Shown one piece after another: positions 45,676 to 58,935 of a stretch of DNA of 64,000 bases (positions within the stretch are counted from its first letter, which is position 1; each line of letters begins with the position of its first letter). The notes beneath the pieces are model-generated. The model saw only the letters and a list, made by a program, of their open reading frames with translations, ran no database searches and was not told the DNA's origin. Made by a program: the position numbers and the translations under genes. The stretch is from assembly GCF_014205015.1 (NCBI RefSeq), contig NZ_JACHMO010000001.1, forward strand, positions 8,804,001 through 8,868,000, given 5' to 3'. This DNA is from Saccharothrix ecbatanensis (GTDB taxonomy: Bacteria > Actinomycetota > Actinomycetes > Mycobacteriales > Pseudonocardiaceae).

Positions 45676-47142
45676 ATGAAGATCTTCACCGGCAAGAATT
45701 CCACCCGCGCCGCCGCCTCCGTCGTGGCGGGCTTGCTGACCGCGGGCCTGTGCGCGGCGGGGAACGCCACCGTTGCCCAAGCGGCCGAGCTGCCACCGGG
45801 GTCAAGTCGCGTCGGGGTGCTGTCGAACTCCGGTGACGTGCACGTGAAGGAAGGCACGCTGCTGTCGTCCTGGGTCGAGAAGATGTCGACCGGGGTGGTC
45901 GCGTTCGAGGTGGCGGGCGATCGCGTTGGCGTGCTGGACACCGGCGGCAAGCTGTGGGTGAAGGAGGGGAACCTCTGGACCGGCTGGTCGGAGCAGGCCG
46001 ACAACGTCAAGGACTTCCGCCTCGCCGGGAACCGCATCGGGATCGTCCGCACCGACGGCACGGCCGCGGTGAAGGAGGGCGGTCTCCAGGCCGGCTGGTC
46101 CGAGCAGGCCAACGGCGTGCGGGAAGTGGAGATCACGCCTGACCGCATCGGCATCGTCGGCACCGACGGCACGGTCAACGTCAAGCAGGGCGGCCTCGGC
46201 GCCGGGTGGGTCCCGCAGATCGGCGGGGTCGCCGACCTGGAGCTGTCCGGTGACCGCGTCGGCGTGCTCCGCACCGACGGCACGGTCGCGGTGAAGGAGT
46301 CCAACCTCTGGTCCGACTGGGTCGAGCAGACCAACGGCGTCACCGACCTGGAACTGTCCGGCAGCCTCATCGGTGTCGTGCTGGCCAACGGGCTGGCGAC
46401 GGTGAAGGAGGGCAACCTCTACTCGGCGTGGGTGAACCAGCTCGGTGACGCCGAGGACATCGAGATCTCCGGCGACCGCATCGGTGTGGTGCGCGCCAAC
46501 GGGTCCGCGGTCGTGAAGGACGGCGGCGTCTACGGCGCCTGGGTCGAGCAGACCAGCGGTGTGAAGCAGTTGCGCCTGGCCACGGCCACGCCCGCTTCCG
46601 CGGCGGGCCACGTGACGATCGACGACATCACCGCCATCTACGGCTCCGCGTACGCCACGGACACCGTCGCGGCGGGCTTGCCCGGCCTGAACGAGGTCAT
46701 GACGCAGAAGGGCATCACCACCCCGACCCGCAAGGCCGCGTTCCTGGCGACCCTCAAGCACGAGAGCGGCTTCCGCTACAACGCCGGTGAAGCGGGGAAC
46801 ATCGCGGTCTACCGAGGCCGCGGCTTCATCCAGCTGACCGGGCAGTACAACTACCAGTCCGCCGGCGCGAGCCTCGGTCACGACTTCCTGAACAACCCGT
46901 CCGACGCCGCCTCGCTCCAGTGGAGCGCCAAGGTCGCCGGTTGGTACTGGACGGTCGCCCGCAACATCAACGCCGCCGCGGACGCCTACGACATGGGCGC
47001 GGTCGGCCGCGCGATCGGCTACTCGTACGCCCTCGACCCGACCGAGTCGAACAACCGCTGCGCCTCCTACAAGCGCGCTCTCGCCCACTTCAACGGCGGC
47101 AGCCTGCCGGTCCCCGAAACCGCCATCGACTGCACCCGCTGA
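45676..47142 (+). CDS. secreted seven-repeat propeller-like protein with C-terminal GH19-type lytic domain
   Basis: 488 residues, ATG with AAGGGGAACCG upstream. The signal peptide is ASVVAGLLTAGLCAAGNATV, with cleavage near AQAA (residue 37). Residues about 43-301 are seven repeats of 37 residues with the pattern D-R-[I/V]-G-[V/I]-x-x-T-D-G-x-x-x-V-K-E-G-x-L, then W-x-x-Q-x-x-x-V. Seven short beta repeats of this kind suggest a seven-bladed tectonin-like propeller that binds glycans or wall polymers. The C-terminus (about 312-488) is a lysozyme-like GH19 domain: FLATLKHESGFRYNAGEAG, with its glutamate as likely acid, and YRGRGFIQLTGQYNY. It should cleave chitin or peptidoglycan outside the cell. 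It is likely cotranscribed with the CHAP gene and activated by the upstream SARP protein. Confidence 0.88.
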   Translation: MKIFTGKNSTRAAASVVAGLLTAGLCAAGNATVAQAAELPPGSSRVGVLSNSGDVHVKEGTLLSSWVEKMSTGVVAFEVAGDRVGVLDTGGKLWVKEGNLWTGWSEQADNVKDFRLAGNRIGIVRTDGTAAVKEGGLQAGWSEQANGVREVEITPDRIGIVGTDGTVNVKQGGLGAGWVPQIGGVADLELSGDRVGVLRTDGTVAVKESNLWSDWVEQTNGVTDLELSGSLIGVVLANGLATVKEGNLYSAWVNQLGDAEDIEISGDRIGVVRANGSAVVKDGGVYGAWVEQTSGVKQLRLATATPASAAGHVTIDDITAIYGSAYATDTVAAGLPGLNEVMTQKGITTPTRKAAFLATLKHESGFRYNAGEAGNIAVYRGRGFIQLTGQYNYQSAGASLGHDFLNNPSDAASLQWSAKVAGWYWTVARNINAAADAYDMGAVGRAIGYSYALDPTESNNRCASYKRALAHFNGGSLPVPETAIDCTR

Positions 47143-52168: not shown

Positions 52169-54295
52169 TCACAAATCGAGGCCGGTCGCCCAGGCCAGGA
52201 ACGTCAACTGGTCCACGGCCAGGCCGACCGATCGGCTCACCGATCGGCCCGCGTGCCCCACCTCGGTCTCGCGGCGGAGCAGCACGGGGTGCTTGGTCGG
52301 ATCACTCGATGTCGCGTGCTGGAGCGCCGCGCACATCTTCCGGGCGTGGTTGGGGTCCACGCGGCTGTCCGACTCGAAGACCGTGAACAGGACCGAAGGG
52401 TACTCAACACCGGGCCGGACTCGGTGGTACGGGGAGTAGGCCAGCAGCCATTCCAGCTCTGACGGCACCGATGCGGAGCCGTACTCCTCCGCCCACAGTC
52501 GCCCGAGCAGGAACTTCTCGTACCGCACCATGTCCAGCAGTGGCGCCGAGCACACCGCCGCCGCGTACAGCTCCGGTCGCTGCGTCACCGCCGCGCCCAC
52601 CAACAGCCCGCCGTTCGACCCGCCCATGATCGACAGCTGCTGCGGCGTGGTCCACCCGTCCCCGATCAACTTCCCGGCCGCCGAGTGGAAGTCGTCGAAC
52701 ACGTTCTGCTTCCGCTCACGCCTCCCGGCCTGGTGCCATTCCTCTCCCTCCTCGTCACCGCCCCGCAACGACGCGTGCGCCCACACGCCGCCCGCCTCGA
52801 CCCAGGCCAACGTCGTCGCGCTGTACCCCGGCCCGCGCCCGACCGCGAACCCGCCGTACCCGGTGAGCAACGTCGGCCGGGGCAGATCCGGGTGTTGTGC
52901 CCCGGACACCACGAACATTCGCACGACCGTCCCGTCGGACGACGTGTACGAGAGCTGTTGTGTGGACACCTCCGGCAGGACGACCGTTCCGGGCGCCGCC
53001 TCGGCCAGCTCCGTCCGACCCTCGGTGAGCGAGTACCGGTGCACTGACATGGGCGTTGTGAAGTCGGACCACCCGAACCACAGCACGTCCCGGTCCGCAA
53101 CCGTGCGCGCGTCGACTGTGGACAACCCGTGCACCGACCCCGTCCCCGGCAGCGGCACCTCCCGCAGGTGCGCGCCGGTTCCGGGGGAGTGCAGGTGCAG
53201 TTCCGACACCGCGTGCCGCGTCCGCAGCAGGACGAGCGTCCCGTCCAGCCACGTCACCGCGTCCAGCACCGAATCCGGCTGCTCCGGCACCAGCTCGGTC
53301 CACTCGGTGGGCGTCTCCGGGTCGGCCACGCACAGTCGGAACCGCGGCGCGTCCAGGCTGGTCCGCAGGTAGAGCCGCCCGTCCGGCGCGATCCACGCCG
53401 CGCACTGCACGCCGTCGTCGTCCGCGACCACCGGCTTCAACTCGCCGGATCCGTGCAGGTCGGCGATCCACACCGAGTCCCGTCGCACGGTGCCCGGCAC
53501 ACCGTTCACCAGCAGCCACCGACCGTCCTCGGACAGGGACACCCCGTAGTAGTAGGTGTGGTCGAGCCCGTCACCGTGCACGTTCACGTCGCCCGACGCC
53601 GGCGTCCCGACCCGGTGCCGCCACACCCGCCGGTGGAACTGCCGCTCGTCCTCGGGCACCAGCGCCGGGTCGACCCGGCGGACGTAGAAGAACTCCTCCC
53701 CGCCCGGCAGCCAGGCCACCGGCGAGTACCGGCACCGGTCGACCGGCCCGTCCAGCAACTCCCCGGAGTCGACGTCCACGACGTGGAGCAGCGAGTGCTC
53801 GTCTCCGCCCACGGAGAGCTGGTACGCGAGGCGCGTACCTTCGAGGGAGGGCGACCACCGGTCCAAGGTGGTCCGCCCGGTCGGGTCGACCGTCGACACG
53901 TCCAGCAGCACCCGCTCCACACCGTCCACCCGCACGTACAGCACGGGGTGGTCCTGGTCCGGCCCACGCCGGGTGTAGAACGACCGCCCGGCCCGCCACA
54001 CCGGCGTGCCGACGGACCCGGTCCGCATCAGCTCGGCGAGCCGGGCGCCCAGCGCGGCACGTCCGGGCATGGCGTCCAGCCACGACCTCGCCAGCCCGTC
54101 CTGCTCGGCGGACCAGTCGGCGGTGCGGGGGTCGGTGGCGTCTTCCAGCCAGCGGTATGGATCAGCTACGGCGTGTCCGTGCAGGTCCTCGACGAGGTCG
54201 AGCCGTGCCGCGGCGGGATAGGTGATCGTCGCAGGCAGCGCTGCGGGGGAGGCCTCAGTCACCTCCGGGAGCGTAGCGGCCCTGATGAAAACCAT
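52169..54295 (-). CDS. prolyl oligopeptidase, S9 family
   Basis: 708 residues from the ATG at 54295; a GTG at 54262 (VTEASPAALP) would give 697 and may be the true start, since neither has a well-spaced ribosome site. The family start motif DLHGHAVADPYRWLED is present. The N-terminal seven-bladed propeller spans about 80-430, and the alpha/beta hydrolase domain holds the triad: Ser in SIMGGSNGGLL (near 560), Asp in VFESDSRVD (near 642) and His in TEVGHAGRS (near 679). It cleaves short Pro-containing peptides. No signal peptide, so cytoplasmic. It is an insertion relative to the mycobacterial order, together with the MscS gene. Confidence 0.94.
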   Translation of the reverse strand: MVFIRAATLPEVTEASPAALPATITYPAAARLDLVEDLHGHAVADPYRWLEDATDPRTADWSAEQDGLARSWLDAMPGRAALGARLAELMRTGSVGTPVWRAGRSFYTRRGPDQDHPVLYVRVDGVERVLLDVSTVDPTGRTTLDRWSPSLEGTRLAYQLSVGGDEHSLLHVVDVDSGELLDGPVDRCRYSPVAWLPGGEEFFYVRRVDPALVPEDERQFHRRVWRHRVGTPASGDVNVHGDGLDHTYYYGVSLSEDGRWLLVNGVPGTVRRDSVWIADLHGSGELKPVVADDDGVQCAAWIAPDGRLYLRTSLDAPRFRLCVADPETPTEWTELVPEQPDSVLDAVTWLDGTLVLLRTRHAVSELHLHSPGTGAHLREVPLPGTGSVHGLSTVDARTVADRDVLWFGWSDFTTPMSVHRYSLTEGRTELAEAAPGTVVLPEVSTQQLSYTSSDGTVVRMFVVSGAQHPDLPRPTLLTGYGGFAVGRGPGYSATTLAWVEAGGVWAHASLRGGDEEGEEWHQAGRRERKQNVFDDFHSAAGKLIGDGWTTPQQLSIMGGSNGGLLVGAAVTQRPELYAAAVCSAPLLDMVRYEKFLLGRLWAEEYGSASVPSELEWLLAYSPYHRVRPGVEYPSVLFTVFESDSRVDPNHARKMCAALQHATSSDPTKHPVLLRRETEVGHAGRSVSRSVGLAVDQLTFLAWATGLDL

Positions 54296-54352
54296 CTTCG
54301 ATAGGGGTGTGTTCACCCGGAGTTTCGATCTCGGGTCCGTGACACGTCGCAT

Positions 54353-54364
54353 ATCACAGGTGAT
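54353..54364. promoter_or_regulatory. small dyad in the HNH promoter
   Basis: ATCAC-AG-GTGAT lies 52-63 bp upstream of the HNH start and 58 bp upstream of the divergent oligopeptidase start. No matching regulator consensus comes to mind. Confidence 0.3.
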
Positions 54365-54415
54365 TTTTGGGGTCGATCTGTGGTCTGCTATTGCTGAACC
54401 GGTGGAGGTGGTCGC

Positions 54416-55081
54416 GTGCCAGACCGACAACCCACCCCGATCGGCGCCCTGGTGAACGCCGGGAACGCGTCGTCGGCACCGTTCGGCCAAAAACAGCTCG
54501 CGGTCACGTCCGTGCACGCTGTGGTCGACGGCGAGGGAGCCGGTCAGGCGCCCGTGGTGTTGCCTTGGGGTAGACGCAAGGTCCTGCTGCTCAACGCCAC
54601 GTTCGAACCGCTCACCGCGCTGCCGTTGCGGCGCGCGGTGGTCCTCGTCGTGTGCGGGAAGGCCGAGGTGGTGCACGGCGACCCCCACGGGGCTGTCGTC
54701 CACTCCTCGACGTCCGAGGTCGTCGTGCCGTCGGTGATCCGGCTGGCCAACTACGTGCGGGTGCCCTACCGCGGTCGGGTCCCGCTCACCCGGGCCGGGT
54801 TGATGCACCGCGACCGGTACCGCTGCGCGTACTGCGGCGGGCGCGCCGAGACGATCGACCACGTCGTGCCGCGCAGCCGGGGTGGTCCCCACTCGTGGCA
54901 GAACTGCGTGGCCTGTTGCGCCAAGTGCAACCACCGCAAGGCCGACAAGCTCCTCTCGGAGCTCGGCTGGCGCCTGCGCGTGGTCCCGAACGCCCCCCGC
55001 GGGCCGCACTGGCGGCTGCTGGCCGGCGTCACCGAAGCCGACCCGCTGTGGCTGCCCTACCTGGGCGAGCCCGCGGCCTAG
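54416..55081 (+). CDS. HNH endonuclease family protein, Rv2469c-like
   Basis: 221 residues from a GTG. A variable, Ala/Gly-rich first 50 residues are followed by KVLLLNATFEPLTALPLRRA, a conserved start of this actinobacterial family. The HNH core has RDRYRCAYCGGRAETIDHVV, then PRSRGGPHSWQNCVACCAKC and NHRKADKLL, with two zinc-binding CxxC pairs. It is probably a DNA-cutting or repair nuclease in the cytoplasm. Homologues lie beside glbO/pepN in mycobacteria. It is not linked to a toxin or restriction partner here. Confidence 0.9.
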   Translation: MPDRQPTPIGALVNAGNASSAPFGQKQLAVTSVHAVVDGEGAGQAPVVLPWGRRKVLLLNATFEPLTALPLRRAVVLVVCGKAEVVHGDPHGAVVHSSTSEVVVPSVIRLANYVRVPYRGRVPLTRAGLMHRDRYRCAYCGGRAETIDHVVPRSRGGPHSWQNCVACCAKCNHRKADKLLSELGWRLRVVPNAPRGPHWRLLAGVTEADPLWLPYLGEPAA

Positions 55082-55093
55082 GCGTTCCGTCCG

Positions 55094-55621
55094 TCACGCC
55101 GCCTGGGTGAAGCCCTCGCGGTCCGAAGTGATGCGCACGGAGCCCGGGTCGGTCCCGGTGATCCGCACCGAGTCCGTGTCGTCGCCCGTGATCCTGACCG
55201 AGTCGGTCTCGTCGCCGGTGATGCGCACCGAGTCGGTCTCGCCGCCGGTGATGCGCACCGAGTCGCTGTCGTCGCCCGTGATGCGCACGGAGTCGTTGTC
55301 CGCGCCGGTGATGCGCACGGAGCCCGTGATCCTGACCGAGCCCGTGATGCGCACCGAACCCGTGATGCGCACCGAAGCCGGGTCGGCGGCGGTGATCCGG
55401 ACCGAGTCGTAGTCGTAGGAAGTGATGCGGACCGAGCCTTGCGTCGACGCGGACGTGATGCGGACGGAGTCGTCAGAGGTGATCCGGACGGAGTCCCCGG
55501 AGGTGATGCGCACCGACCCGGCCAGGACGGCGGGGCGCTGATCGGTCGTAACGCTCTGCTCCAGTTGGGCGTACGACGAAAGAGTGAGGGCGGCGACCAG
55601 AGCAAGGTTCACGGTGTACAT
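55094..55621 (-). CDS. SVRIT-repeat protein (15 copies), unknown function
   Basis: 175 residues, ATG at 55621 with GGAGG seven bases upstream, so translation is well supported. The N-terminus (MYTVNLALVAALTLSSYAQL) is a short hydrophobic segment resembling a signal peptide or anchor but lacking basic residues. From residue 36 to 165 the protein is 15 copies of SVRIT: early copies with variable spacers, three direct SVRITG copies, then six exact 10-residue units SVRITG-x-[D/E]-x-[D/G]. There is no Cys, Lys, Trp or His in the repeats. Alternating Ser-Val-Arg-Ile-Thr favours beta strands, so a beta-solenoid or adhesive fibre is plausible. The Ser/Thr plus Asp/Glu pattern also recalls multi-core graspetide precursors, but no ATP-grasp gene is near. 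It converges with the HNH gene (12 bp apart). I know no homologous family. Confidence 0.8.
   Translation of the reverse strand: MYTVNLALVAALTLSSYAQLEQSVTTDQRPAVLAGSVRITSGDSVRITSDDSVRITSASTQGSVRITSYDYDSVRITAADPASVRITGSVRITGSVRITGSVRITGADNDSVRITGDDSDSVRITGGETDSVRITGDETDSVRITGDDTDSVRITGTDPGSVRITSDREGFTQAA
55127..55516 (-). repeat. coding repeats encoding SVRIT units
   Basis: The DNA unit on the minus strand is TCGGTGCGCATCAC-like, spaced 18-33 bp and settling to exactly 30 bp for six successive units (residues 101-160). Synonymous differences between units show selection on the peptide as well as duplication. Confidence 0.9.
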
Positions 55622-56105
55622 GTCGTGTCCTCCGAGACTCATCGGGCGGGAATTGGTATCCGGAATCGGATGCGCAAGACCCGTACAGGTGAAAAGCTAG
55701 AAGCCGAGTGGGCCCAGTACAAGACGCCAAACCGGCCGCCATACGCCTCCGTATGGGGGAAGGCCGTCCGGGTGTACGCACTGCGACGATCGAGCGGTGG
55801 ATCTAGTGCATCCGGCACCAATGGACACCGAGGGTGACATTGGCGCAGGTAGGGGTCGTGGAGATCACATCGACCATGTCGGGTGACGGGGATCGTGCCG
55901 GTGGCCGACCCGGTGTCGCGCCCGGCACCCTCGTCCCATCATGCGGTCACCGCCGAACACGGGATCACCACGGGCTCCGCGGCGTCCGCGTTCACAGATA
56001 GAGCGTCCCGTCGGACGGTGTCGCGCACCCCGGCGAGCCCGTGCCGGTGCGAAAACAGGTGCCCTCGCCCTCACGTGACCAGGACGATCGGTTACCGTAA
56101 CCGGC
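55622..56105. other. 484-bp intergenic stretch, no gene seen
   Basis: Open frames here are short and lack start context or coding composition. It must contain the promoter of the SVRIT gene and of the ctaJ-like gene. A 13-bp palindrome GGTTAC-C-GTAACC (56090-56102) ends 3 bp before the ctaJ GTG and may be an operator or leaderless-promoter element. Confidence 0.5.
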
Positions 56106-56351
56106 GTGACCATCGTGGAGACCATGCTCGTCTTCGCGCTGATCCCGCTGGCCATCTACGGCGTGATCACGCTACTGACGCTGAGGCCGAAGGCCACCCG
56201 CATCCAGCGGTACCGCCCGGGCCAGGAATGGAACTACGCCCCCGTCTGGTGGAGTGCGAACCCCGCCGGGCTGACCGGCGGCGCGCACCAGGCCGCCGCT
56301 ACCCCGGCCGAGGGCCGTACCGCCAAGGGAGGTGCCCGTGGCAACTGGTGA
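56106..56351 (+). CDS. ctaJ: small membrane protein, CtaJ-like accessory subunit of aa3-type cytochrome oxidase
   Basis: 81 residues from a GTG. One membrane helix (TMLVFALIPLAIYGVITLLT, about 6-25) is followed by RPKATRIQRYRPGQEWNYAP and VWWSANPAGL, a pattern I associate with the actinobacterial CtaJ subunit found in the mycobacterial III2-IV2 supercomplex; that gene lies between the pepN and glbO loci there, as here. The tail is Ala/Gly-rich. The stop overlaps the next gene by 14 bp. Assignment is by pattern and synteny, not by alignment. Confidence 0.75.
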   Translation: MTIVETMLVFALIPLAIYGVITLLTLRPKATRIQRYRPGQEWNYAPVWWSANPAGLTGGAHQAAATPAEGRTAKGGARGNW

Positions 56352-56823
56352 GCTGACGAGGGCGGACGTGGACCCGTCGACCCTGGAGGTCGGCGCGGTC
56401 GTCACCAACAGCGGCCGGGTTTCCGCCGCCAAGATGTACGAGCCGCACGCGCCGGACCTGCCGTTCACGCCGGTTCAGCTGGCGAGCCTGGACGAGGCGG
56501 TGACGCTGGCCAGCCGGACCACCGGACTGGACTACAGCGTGTACCTCGGCGAACTGGGCTCCGACTTCCGGGCGAAGGCCGAGGAGCTGCACGCGAGCAC
56601 CCCGCGCCCGTCCCACGCCGTGCTGATCGCGGTGTCGCCGGGTGAGCGCGTGGTCGAGGTGGTGACGGGCGACGAGTCCCACCGCCGCATCTCGGATCGC
56701 GGCGCCAAGCTCGCCGTGATGAGCATGGTCGCGTCCTTCAAGGAGGGCGACCTCTCCGGCGGTCTGTTGAGCGGCCTGCGGATGTTGACCGACCAGGCGG
56801 GTAGCGCGCCCAAACAGCGCTGA
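56338..56823 (+). CDS. DUF5130 family protein (Rv2468c-like)
   Basis: 161 residues from the GTG at 56338, chosen because AAGGGAGG lies five bases upstream; the frame opens at 56332. The domain resembles TPM/YgcG-type folds: FTPVQLASLDEAVTLASRTT, DYSVYLGELG, HAVLIAVSPGERVVEVVTG and a C-terminal LAVMSMVASFKEGDLSGGLL. There is no signal peptide. It overlaps the CtaJ-like gene and is translationally coupled to it, and the pair is conserved upstream of pepN in mycobacteria. Function is unknown; the coupling suggests a respiratory or membrane role. Confidence 0.85.
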   Translation: MATGELTRADVDPSTLEVGAVVTNSGRVSAAKMYEPHAPDLPFTPVQLASLDEAVTLASRTTGLDYSVYLGELGSDFRAKAEELHASTPRPSHAVLIAVSPGERVVEVVTGDESHRRISDRGAKLAVMSMVASFKEGDLSGGLLSGLRMLTDQAGSAPKQR

Positions 56824-56847
56824 GCCTGACGAAGCAAGCCTGACGGA

Positions 56848-56880
56848 GCAAGGGCCCCGGCGCTGAGCCGGGGCCCTTGC
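56848..56880. terminator. bidirectional terminator
   Basis: GCAAGGGCCCCGGC and GCCGGGGCCCTTGC form a perfect 14-bp stem with a 5-nt loop between the convergent DUF5130 and DUF397 genes. Confidence 0.9.
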
Positions 56881-56882
56881 GT

Positions 56883-57044
56883 TCACCTGGTCTTGAGCGC
56901 GTCCACGAACGCCCTCAACCGCGCCGGGCTGACTTCCAGCGCCGCCTCGGGGTTCTTGCTGTCGCGCAGCGCGCCCAGGTGGTTCGCCACTTCGACGCAA
57001 TCGCTGCTTAAGCTTCTGCTGGACTTCTTCCACCGCACCGTCAT
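56883..57044 (-). CDS. DUF397 protein
   Basis: 53 residues (MTVRWKKSSRSLSSDCVEVA then LRDSKNPEAALEVSPARLRA). W-x-K-S-S-x-S and D-C-V-E-V plus RDSKNP are the DUF397 signature. Such small proteins pair with DUF5753 XRE regulators and are linked to development and antibiotic control in streptomycetes. Its ATG overlaps the XRE stop as ATGA, so the two are coupled. Codon 12 (57009-57011) is TTA, implying possible bldA dependence. The ORF is shorter than most annotated here but is clearly real. Confidence 0.92.
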   Translation of the reverse strand: MTVRWKKSSRSLSSDCVEVANHLGALRDSKNPEAALEVSPARLRAFVDALKTR

Positions 57045-57883
57045 GCGACTCCTGTCGTCCGCTGCACCTCCTTCGCGATGACCTCGAAGGACTGTCCCGG
57101 GGTCATCGCGACGTCCAGCAACTCTGGCACGGACTCTTCGAAGCCGGCTACCGCCACGGGCTCCTGCACGACGACGGCACTGACCTGGTTCTCCAAGTGC
57201 ACGAACGAGGTTCCACCGCACTTGATCAGCTGGAATGCGCCGCTGAGCCCGGCGTGCCAGCCGGTGGCGTGGGGCACGATCCGGAGATCGACGTTCTCGT
57301 GGGCGCTCATCATCAAGAGGTGGTCGAACTGCTCGGCCCTGACCTCTGGGCCGCCGACCGTCTGGCTCAGCACGCCCTCGCCGATCAGTGCGGTGTAGCG
57401 GACGGGGTTGCGGCGCGTGAGGATGTCCCGTCGTCCCATCCGGACCGCGACGCGAGTGGCGATCTCCTCGTCGGGGACGCGCCCGGCTTCCATGATCGCG
57501 CGGCTGTAGGAGCTGACCTGGAGCAGGCCGGGGATGATGAGCGGCGACCACGTCACCACCTCCTTGGCCATCTGTTCGACCTCCACCAGTGCGGCGATCT
57601 GCCTGCGGCGCTCCGGCAGTTCGATCACGTCCAAGGGCGATCCGGTGGGGTCCTCGGCCAGCGCGAGGATTTCTTTCCGTACACGATCGGTGATGGTGAG
57701 CGGGTCGAGGATGCGGATGACTTCGGCGAGTGTCGGCACGCGTTGTCCGCTTTCGTTGCGTGAGAGCAGCGAATGGATTACACCGATCTTCCGGCCAAGC
57801 GCGCGTTGACTGAGGTTATTCTCCTCGCGGACGTTGCGCAGGAGCGCGCCCAAAACCATGGATTTAGAGGTATTGCGTTTCAT
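57041..57883 (-). CDS. XRE-family regulator with DUF5753 domain
   Basis: 280 residues. The N-terminal HTH (about 10-70) is LGALLRNVREENNLSQRALG, RKIGVIHSLLSRNESGQRVP. The DUF5753 domain (about 95-270) has EQMAKEVVTWSPLIIPGLLQ, YSRAIMEAGRVPDEEIATRV and NVDLRIVPHATGWHAGLSGA. It forms a coupled unit with the DUF397 gene and probably acts as toxin-antitoxin-like or developmental regulator pair. The AT-rich start codons contrast with the rest of the window. Confidence 0.92.
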   Translation of the reverse strand: MKRNTSKSMVLGALLRNVREENNLSQRALGRKIGVIHSLLSRNESGQRVPTLAEVIRILDPLTITDRVRKEILALAEDPTGSPLDVIELPERRRQIAALVEVEQMAKEVVTWSPLIIPGLLQVSSYSRAIMEAGRVPDEEIATRVAVRMGRRDILTRRNPVRYTALIGEGVLSQTVGGPEVRAEQFDHLLMMSAHENVDLRIVPHATGWHAGLSGAFQLIKCGGTSFVHLENQVSAVVVQEPVAVAGFEESVPELLDVAMTPGQSFEVIAKEVQRTTGVA

Positions 57884-58083
57884 GATGCGCAGCTTAAAGC
57901 GGGACCGGTGGTCCAGTCTCTCGCCCGAAAGCGGTATTGACCGACTGTTCTCCGCCGGACACGCTGTTGTGCAACACAGCTACCGGCCGGTCCGCACGCT
58001 GGTCGGACATGCGCGGCGGGTGGTGGAGCGCGCGAGGACTGCGCAGCGCCCACCTCCCGCCGCGTCTCGCAACAAGGGGAGTC

Positions 58084-58935
58084 ATGGAGTCCGAAGAAAG
58101 GCCGCCTGCCCGGCTGAGCACTGCCCGCAGTCGGGAATTGGGGGAGGAATTGCGCCGCGTCCGGCACCGGTCCCGGATGTCGTCCGGGTTCGTCGCCGAG
58201 GCGCTGGGGTGGTCACTGGGGAAACTGTCGAAACTCGAAACCGGAACTCGGGGCACGAGCCCGTGTGAAATCGGCACGCTGCTCGGTCGTTGCGGCGCGG
58301 ACAAGCCGACTCGTGACCGGGTCCTGGCCATTGCGAGTGAAGCCGACACAGGCAGTTTCCTGCGGCTGCACGACTCGTCGCCGGACACGTTGACTGCGCT
58401 GTCCGTGCACGAGCACACGGCCCGCACCGTCACCGTGTACGAGCCGTTGACGGTGCCGAGCGTGGCCCAGACCGAGGACTACGCGTACGCGCTGACCAGG
58501 AACCGGACCCTCACCCAGGCCCGCATGTCACGTCAGGAGGTGCTGCGCCGCACGGACGGCCCGGAGATGGTGATCTACCTCCACGAGGCCTCGTTGCGCC
58601 TGGTCGTCGGCGACCCGAAGGTGATGCGCGACCAGTTGCTGCGCCTGGCGCTGATGGGCGGGTGGCCGCACATCTCCTTGCGCGTCATCCCGATGACCGC
58701 GCCGTCCCACGTCGCCCTGCGCCACCCGGCGACACTGATGACCTTCGCCACGCCCGTCAAGCCGTTGGCCTACACCGAGACCGACACGGCCACCGTCTTC
58801 CACGACGCCCCGGACGCCATCAGCGCGTACCAGACCAAGATCCGCCACCTGGAACGCCTGGTCCTGACCCCGGCCCAGTCCCGCGACGTGCTCACCCGCT
58901 GGGCCGACGCCTACGACCGCGACACCCGTTCCTGA
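58084..58935 (+). CDS. second XRE/DUF5753 regulator, without DUF397 partner
   Basis: 283 residues, ATG with AAGGGGAG upstream. HTH at about 15-75 (LGEELRRVRHRSRMSSGFVA, EALGWSLGKLSKLETGTRGT). The DUF5753 part has VYEPLTVPSVAQTEDYAYAL, RRTDGPEMVIYLHEASLRLV and MGGWPHISLRVIPMTAPSHV. It is divergent from the first XRE gene with 200 bp between them and has no DUF397 gene after it. The two regulators are only distantly similar. The target is unknown. Confidence 0.9.
   Translation: MESEERPPARLSTARSRELGEELRRVRHRSRMSSGFVAEALGWSLGKLSKLETGTRGTSPCEIGTLLGRCGADKPTRDRVLAIASEADTGSFLRLHDSSPDTLTALSVHEHTARTVTVYEPLTVPSVAQTEDYAYALTRNRTLTQARMSRQEVLRRTDGPEMVIYLHEASLRLVVGDPKVMRDQLLRLALMGGWPHISLRVIPMTAPSHVALRHPATLMTFATPVKPLAYTETDTATVFHDAPDAISAYQTKIRHLERLVLTPAQSRDVLTRWADAYDRDTRS

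Follow-up and report, generated by a model that had tools for sequence, protein, structure and literature searches.

A pentapeptide word repeated in array proteins of Pseudonocardiaceae points to a possible recognition system not described before

The window analysed here, a stretch of 64,000 nucleotides from Saccharothrix ecbatanensis, carries on its minus strand a gene for a small protein whose body is an array of the pentapeptide word SVRIT (Table 1). Exactly 15 copies of the word lie in the minus-strand frame, as a first-pass annotation of the sequence had counted, and the good ribosome site named there is indeed present; a second in-frame ATG upstream, at 55642, would add 7 aa. The array was also said to end in six exact 10-residue units: the last seven copies do lie exactly 10 residues apart (six intervals), but the spacer letters differ. 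GC makes up a fraction of 0.92 of third codon positions in the gene, compared with 0.57 of first and 0.56 of second positions, and codon choice is mixed among its 15 SVRIT copies.

Table 1. Features of the SVRIT array locus, in coordinates of the window.
Feature	Position	Strand	Remark
Convergent HNH endonuclease, anchor neighbour	54416..55081	plus	PF14279, PF01844
SVRIT-word array protein CDS, 175 aa	55094..55621	minus	ATG at 55621, stop 55094-55096
C-terminal tail of 10 residues, SDREGFTQAA	55097..55126	minus	
Word array, 15 SVRIT copies set apart by 1-6 residues	55127..55516	minus	
N-terminal leader, residues 1-35	55517..55621	minus	
Ribosome-binding site GGAGG	55629..55633	minus	read from sequence, 7 nt upstream of the ATG at 55621
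Conserved element TTTTCACCTGTACGGGTCTTG, just downstream of -10	55675..55695	minus	position from G000 coordinates
Promoter TTGTAC, 17 nt, TAGCTT	55694..55722	minus	read by eye
Conserved GCCGGTTTGGCGTCTTGT, overlaps -35	55719..55736	minus	only exact copy in genome
Small ORF, 81 aa, hydrophobic N-terminus, divergent neighbour	56106..56351	plus	no Pfam match
DUF5130/TPM-domain protein, neighbour	56332..56823	plus	PF17174, E 8.8e-38

The protein belongs to no known family, as had been claimed: Pfam and NCBIfam gave nothing above cut-off and PADLOC nothing, and the Pfam pentapeptide-repeat family (PF00805) was not among the Pfam matches. PHROGs returned only weak matches to families of no known role (best E 0.0019), and a PDB search with the protein gave nothing below E 0.03. 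That the gene is real rather than a chance frame is supported by the presence of SVRIT pairs in all 25 genomes of the genus, the reversed control giving 0 matches. A chance frame or a DNA motif is ruled out by the codon diversity. An antisense frame as the true gene was rejected, since by reading the promoter, GGAGG and stop all lie on the minus strand and the silent variation fits the minus frame; a structured RNA was rejected as well, since the interval 53500-57500 contains nothing that matches Rfam at E 0.5 or less. Searches for a phage-, plasmid- or defence-borne gene, run with the SVRIT word, found no match among plasmids and none in PADLOC; viral contigs gave 0 matches for SVRIT pairs, and the phage matches were limited to 3 cyanophage records, whose repeats are 27-30% identical. 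A mobile element was likewise not supported by a plasmid search with one mixed-motif protein.

On the HNH side, the array gene is followed in order by the genes for the HNH endonuclease, an S9 peptidase, an MscS-type channel and an alpha-amylase-family enzyme, and on the opposite side by the small ORF, DUF5130, an M1 aminopeptidase and an Rv2466c-like protein. Stretches of about 14 kb from 11 further genomes contained the S9, MscS, alpha-amylase, small ORF and DUF5130 genes in every case and the aminopeptidase in 10; the array was matched in 10 of the 11, and the remaining one, G024, has its three words at the same place by coordinates. The array gene, which had been thought to interrupt a conserved neighbourhood, is a regular member of it. 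At loci that do not carry an array, HNH was present in 12 of 12 and the small ORF with DUF5130 in 5 of 12, the seven stretches of genera g5 and g30 showing neither; because HNH, small ORF and DUF5130 all occur at such loci, they are poor candidates for a partner of the array protein. No Rap-like or other cognate receptor gene was recognised beside the array, where the constant neighbours are HNH, S9 peptidase, MscS-type channel, small ORF and DUF5130, and no ClpP, ClpX or trigger factor was recognised among reading frames of at least 150 codons in the 14 kb after the window. In the window genome, DUF397 and DUF5753/HTH regulator genes (56883-57551 and 57041-57883 on the minus strand, 57937-58935 on the plus strand) sit between DUF5130 and the M1 aminopeptidase, and a class I chitinase (GH19) gene lies near the array locus at 45676-47142 on the plus strand.

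In a protein search, SVRIT relatives with E 1.4e-10 or better turned up in 23 of 24 further genomes of the genus; the one missed, G024, carries just three words and came to light through a DNA pattern. The DNA pattern of two neighbouring words matches 54 of 390 genomes of the family (reversed control 0), and these are all the members of five genera (25, 1, 24, 3 and 1 genomes), with no match among the 336 genomes of the other 41 genera of Pseudonocardiaceae. A class-wide draw of 394 genomes returned the window genome only, with 0 of the 393 others, two of which are Pseudonocardiaceae. The 54 SVRIT proteins contain 850 copies of the word, and repeat number varies between relatives from 3 to 29 copies each. 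No frameshift was seen among relatives: in the wider survey described below, 119 of 120 array frames reach a stop within the fetched stretch, and the sole exception, L154, runs off its contig end.

The DNA upstream of SVRIT arrays is nearly frozen. The element TTTTCACCTRTACGGNYCTTG occurs with at most one mismatch in 252 of 390 Pseudonocardiaceae genomes (control 0), in one copy per genome except for one genome with two, and it is conserved far beyond the SVRIT clade, since it is present in 31 of 46 genera. At 114 of 120 loci TTTCACCT lies 52-79 nt upstream of the start codon; TTGNNN-N16-18-TANNNT precedes the element at 81 of 120, with 17 nt in 80. A strict sigma-70 consensus scan did not list the promoter at 55694..55722, and the same scan listed a weak terminator-like hairpin at 55701-55715. 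A near-palindrome, ACCTGTACGGGT, stands just after the -10 within the conserved region 55675-55736. The conserved promoter region and the first transcribed bases may bind a dedicated regulator. A regulon defined by GCCGGTTTGGCGTCTTGT was rejected: the window's own genome holds one exact copy and seven at 3 mismatches, 8 in all against 36 in the reversed control.

Behind the same upstream element, other genera carry arrays of other words (GTRVT, GVRVT, GVRIS, GTRIT, GIRVN/GVRVN and GVRIH). Anchoring on HNH, used in 28 genomes (27 that lack the element and one that has it) and matched in 27 of them, added GIRVT, GVRIE and GVRIN as well as more GTRVT, GVRIS and GVRVT arrays. The survey of words took one locus from each of 133 genomes and covered part of the 252 element-bearing genomes. 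An array was present at 120 of these loci, spanning 39 of the 46 genera, with g17 represented by the two words of G203; the gene thus counts as a core gene of the family. Twelve of the 13 loci without an array fall in genera g5, g14, g19, g30, g41, g44 and g45, and the thirteenth is that of G081 of g8, where the search got no further than a distant HNH paralogue; absence in a genus rests on one to five genomes. Among other families of the class, 29 HNH loci contained 0 arrays (59 genomes sampled, 48 with an HNH match). The arrays contain 2 to 60 words at the 120 loci. Five are tiny, with 2-4 words (L074 in G024, L181 in G203, L185 in G225, L211 in G374 and L217 in G359), and are possibly collapsed states that allow a word switch before re-expansion.

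By genus, the words read SVRIT, GTRVT, GVRIS, GVRVT, GIRVT, GTRIT, GIRVN, GVRIH, GVRIE or GVRIN, that is, [GS]-[VTI]-R-[VI]-polar. No residue other than the Arg at position 3 is shared by all dominant words; the survey pattern requires this Arg, but many of the words were first read without that requirement. Within a protein the word is almost invariant: 2110 of the 2123 words found by [GS][VTI]R[VI][TSNHED] equal the dominant word of their own protein, 112 of 120 array proteins are fully uniform, and all 13 deviating words differ at a single position. A count made independently of this pattern found 50 units exactly one residue away from the dominant word, the difference lying most often at position 4. 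At the DNA level, adjacent identical words differ in 1891 of 1982 pairs, at a mean of 2.74 of 15 sites, and SVRIT copies use all six Ser codons and five Arg codons. Between 12 pairs of near relatives, the word codons (n=1116) showed 24 residue changes and 356 silent changes only; the other codons (n=1240) showed 225 and 209, the pair L139/L140 being counted wholly as other because GVRVT lies outside the pattern of that count. Since the word is uniform in residues while adjacent copies differ in DNA, selection acts on the peptide.

We mapped the words onto a tree of the neighbouring HNH gene, built from 68 loci (70 chosen, at most three per genus, two lost), in which 26 of 65 inner branches are unresolved. 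The words required 15 changes against a minimum of 11 and a shuffled mean of 40.3, and a count as low was reached in 0 of 200 shuffles. SVRIT needs one change (support 55), GVRIS two and GTRVT seven. The words follow the HNH tree; therefore, the word is inherited and has been switched as a whole several times.

The other parts of the protein are less strictly kept. The leader has a weak pattern across genera, with Gln at about residues 7-10 and a hydrophobic-Thr-[Arg/Leu]-[Ser/Pro] motif at about residue 12, the latter being LTLS in the window protein. With one representative per genus (that of g1 picked by hand), hT[RL][SP] was present in 14 of 39 leaders (500 shuffles: mean 1.2, maximum 7), Q at 7-10 in 20 (shuffle mean 5.9, maximum 12) and a [TS]xQ-like pattern in only 14 (shuffle mean 5.4, maximum 13). 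The N-terminal hydrophobic segment noted in the first-pass annotation is real in the window protein, but only 9 of 54 SVRIT proteins, including that of the window strain, show a hydrophobic N-terminus free of basic residues in a crude run test. Spacing depends on the word, the period being mainly 8-9 for SVRIT and GVRIS, 6 for GTRVT and 11 for GVRVT, and among words represented by several proteins the net charge per 100 residues spans roughly -1 to +19. The residue before the word is mostly D for SVRIT, R for GTRVT and mixed for GVRIS; because the flanks differ between genera, there is no shared cut site.

At the C-terminus, 72 of 119 complete array proteins end in Ala-Ala, and so do 48 of the 54 in the SVRIT clade, where the tail reads LAA in 46 and LAG in 3 more; the window protein ends in FTQAA. 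The tmRNA tags of 15 genomes of this clade end in FALAA (13) or YSLAA (2). PopR is a natural actinobacterial ClpXP substrate with a C-terminal Ala-Ala, and sigma-AntA is another. The study on the latter reports that sigma-AntA of Streptomyces is degraded by ClpXP through this end, which is conserved in 67 of 71 orthologues (PMC7142297). The array proteins share the end with such substrates; they differ in that their body is the word array only, with no regulator domain. As Ala-Ala is missing in 47 of the 119 complete proteins, turnover cannot be the common mechanism.

The same words occur outside the family. With the window protein and an alignment of five SVRIT proteins found elsewhere as queries, each search scoring only about 8000 candidates, 97 proteins were retrieved; every one contains SVRIT, which such queries favour. 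Named bacterial sources are Kribbella, Kibdelosporangium, Glycomyces, Amycolatopsis, Nonomuraea, Virgisporangium and Saccharothrix, and named fungal sources Madurella fahalii, Cercophora newfieldiana and Mortierella antarctica. A secretion-like N-terminus, taken as a run of at least 11 of A/V/L/I/F/M/G/T/S/C within the first 45 residues, is present in 85 of the 97. GTRVT, a word that the query lacked, is present in P0066 and P0089 with 5 copies between them (mean of 0.02 and maximum of 1 in shuffles), and also in P0098-P0100, retrieved with an alignment that contained GTRVT. At least two KR/RR pairs follow residue 30 in 17 of 100 retrieved proteins. Our guess, from basic pairs and secretion-like N-termini, is that the metagenomic P0066, P0089 and P0098-P0100 may be fungal. 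Several such fungus-like SVRIT/GTRVT proteins resemble fungal Kex2-processed repeat proteins (KEPs) in their hydrophobic N-terminus, repeats and KR sites; the bacterial array proteins, by reading, have no Kex2 logic between repeats, and VRIT, NRDF, KIW and TRVTR are absent, by word search, from the main text of one KEP paper (PMC7329392).

Proteins P0004-P0097 (e.g. P0009, P0088 and P0089) are small, mostly secreted-looking actinobacterial or fungal proteins in which further motifs recur beside SVRIT, namely NR[DE][FWYM], [DN]KIW, TDW, [PA]P[YW] and REHIL. No tie was found between this second vocabulary (NR[DE][FWYM], DKIW, TDW, PPY, REHIL) and the Pseudonocardiaceae array family, and part of its enrichment is an effect of the search itself, since some of those motifs were present in query members. 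The metagenomic P0022, P0023 and P0036 do not have a clear signal peptide and combine TDW and SVRIT words with a C-terminal LAA or YAA; two of them also have NRDY or NREF, and the three link the cytosolic kind of protein with the mixed-motif kind. A literature search with the array words, to which subscription papers and preprints were outside scope, gave nothing relevant by title (in one case by the start of the abstract), and for the second-vocabulary words none of the matches listed was relevant.

Taken as a whole, the word-array family points to a recognition system not described before. Among the explanations we ranked, we tentatively put first, and hold as possible, that the protein is a multivalent pentapeptide array read by a putative co-evolving partner and, in the SVRIT clade, short-lived through its Ala-Ala tail. 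The exact conservation of the whole word, the free spacing and the lineage-wide switching fit a peptide read by such a partner. The array protein would be cytosolic and mostly unstructured and would display one word in many copies; the putative partner, a receptor, enzyme or protease, would recognise the complete word, anchored on its central Arg. Word and partner would evolve together, giving each genus its own word, which every copy must match. Copy number and spacing could remain free if valency is what matters, the array titrating, clustering or competitively occupying the partner. The dedicated conserved promoter would set its production, and in the SVRIT clade and some proteins of other genera the SsrA-like Ala-Ala tail probably hands the protein to ClpXP, which would make it a short-lived, tunable sponge.

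Second in order, and somewhat unlikely, is that the arrays are multi-core precursor peptides, a leader with many identical cores that ClpP or an Arg-directed peptidase would cut into genus-specific signal peptides, internal or external, acting alone or after modification. A leader pattern common to part of the genera beside a many-copy core is the layout of such precursors, and the same word recurs in the other bacteria and named fungal records, mostly with secretion-like N-terminal runs. The words share with the Bacillus Phr/RRNPP pentapeptides the five-residue length, a conserved Arg and lineage-specific letters; the arrays differ from them in having many copies per chain, mostly no clear signal peptide, the Arg at position 3 and no Rap-like receptor gene recognised beside them. 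Against a precursor stand the flanks, which vary between genera and offer no shared cut site, the absence by eye of a clear signal peptide in most Pseudonocardiaceae members, in keeping with the run test above, and the 15 neighbouring reading frames, among which no modifying enzyme was recognised. The suggested resemblance to graspetide precursors extends to several cores and to Ser/Thr and acidic residues in the SVRIT clade, but that assignment does not hold for the family: 22 of 43 GTRVT-type orthologues have zero Asp/Glu in the repeat region, and a profile scan of those 15 frames found no ATP-grasp, in agreement with the earlier remark that no such ligase lies nearby.

Third comes homotypic beta assembly, which we regard as unlikely, in which the words are strands that stack on identical words in a beta-solenoid (one chain) or a fibre and word uniformity reflects residue ladders. 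A beta-solenoid or fibre had been suggested for the window protein from its alternating pattern, with [VTI] at position 2 and [VI] at position 4, a likeness shared with functional amyloids such as FapC and the chaplins; it is weakly supported. AlphaFold2 (AF2) modelled the window protein (20 sequences) with pLDDT 64.6, pTM 0.42, one helix and no strands, and Foldseek found no match to this model in the PDB. For a 21-copy relative, L020, with a period of mostly 8 (12 sequences), pLDDT was 82.1 and pTM 0.80, with a strand stack of mostly 6-residue strands and 2-residue turns and pLDDT >90 through most of the array; the best PDB match of that model was weak (E 0.012, TM 0.27), and none to a solved solenoid, or to any PDB entry, was obtained with E up to 0.001. 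AF2 is described, in a report on perfect repeats, as prone to false confident beta-solenoids (PMC11795689). L020-like proteins are nearly regular, but the dominant periods of 6, 8, 9 and 11 between and within words, together with the period of 10, do not fit one coil. Solenoid cores usually tolerate V/I exchange, and in the words such exchange is rare; compared with known solenoids and amyloids, the array combines a variable period with an exact word. The first interpretation of the gene is partly supported; it overlooked the genus-wise switch of the word at one promoter and locus, the Ala-Ala tail and the sharing of words elsewhere.

Fourth, and quite improbable, is a decoy substrate for an Arg-directed enzyme (a trypsin-like or caspase-like protease, or an ADP-ribosyl- or methyltransferase), with the invariant Arg as target and the genus differences following the enzyme's subsites. 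Arg being the sole residue present in every dominant word, with positions 1, 2, 4 and 5 varying within narrow classes, would suit such an enzyme; no enzyme has been linked to the array, and positions 1 and 5 are more uniform than is usual for subsites. Neutral expansion of tandem repeats, maintained in a GC-rich genome by duplication only, has the range of 2 to 60 copies in its favour, but provided that the codon counts are right the codon evidence refutes it: those 1891 of 1982 adjacent copies differ synonymously and the Ser and Arg codon boxes are crossed. In addition, the promoter element and locus are conserved, and we give neutral expansion practically no weight.

The array read by a co-evolving partner has its own difficulties. 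No partner emerged, and the neighbours are poor candidates. No model easily explains how some 20 copies switch unanimously, except through collapse and re-expansion of the array. The confident AF2 folds of L020-like regular arrays argue against disorder, if the model is real, and a purely cytosolic role is at odds with the secreted-looking SVRIT proteins found elsewhere. Among known systems, CsoS2-type multivalent scaffolds are similar in that a long flexible chain offers a partner many copies of a short motif; the array differs from them in that its motif switches as a whole between genera and its partner is putative.

We also considered, as a rather improbable reading, that the pentapeptides are identity words, each genus' word being read by its own co-evolved receptor, and that same-word secreted proteins of Kribbella, Glycomyces, Kibdelosporangium, Amycolatopsis, Nonomuraea and fungi, some of the fungus-like proteins combining SVRIT with GTRVT, would mimic, jam or join the exchange. 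If true, this would amount to a peptide vocabulary common to bacteria and fungi.

Pseudonocardiaceae are known for their antibiotic producers. In this family, the copies of a word switch letters together between genera while silent sites drift freely. Such a pattern is the signature of a five-residue peptide read in strict lock-and-key fashion, and a protein found to co-vary with the word would provide a handle on the partner. The same words in secreted-looking bacterial and fungal proteins raise the testable question of whether such peptides are a matter of exchange or mimicry between soil organisms.
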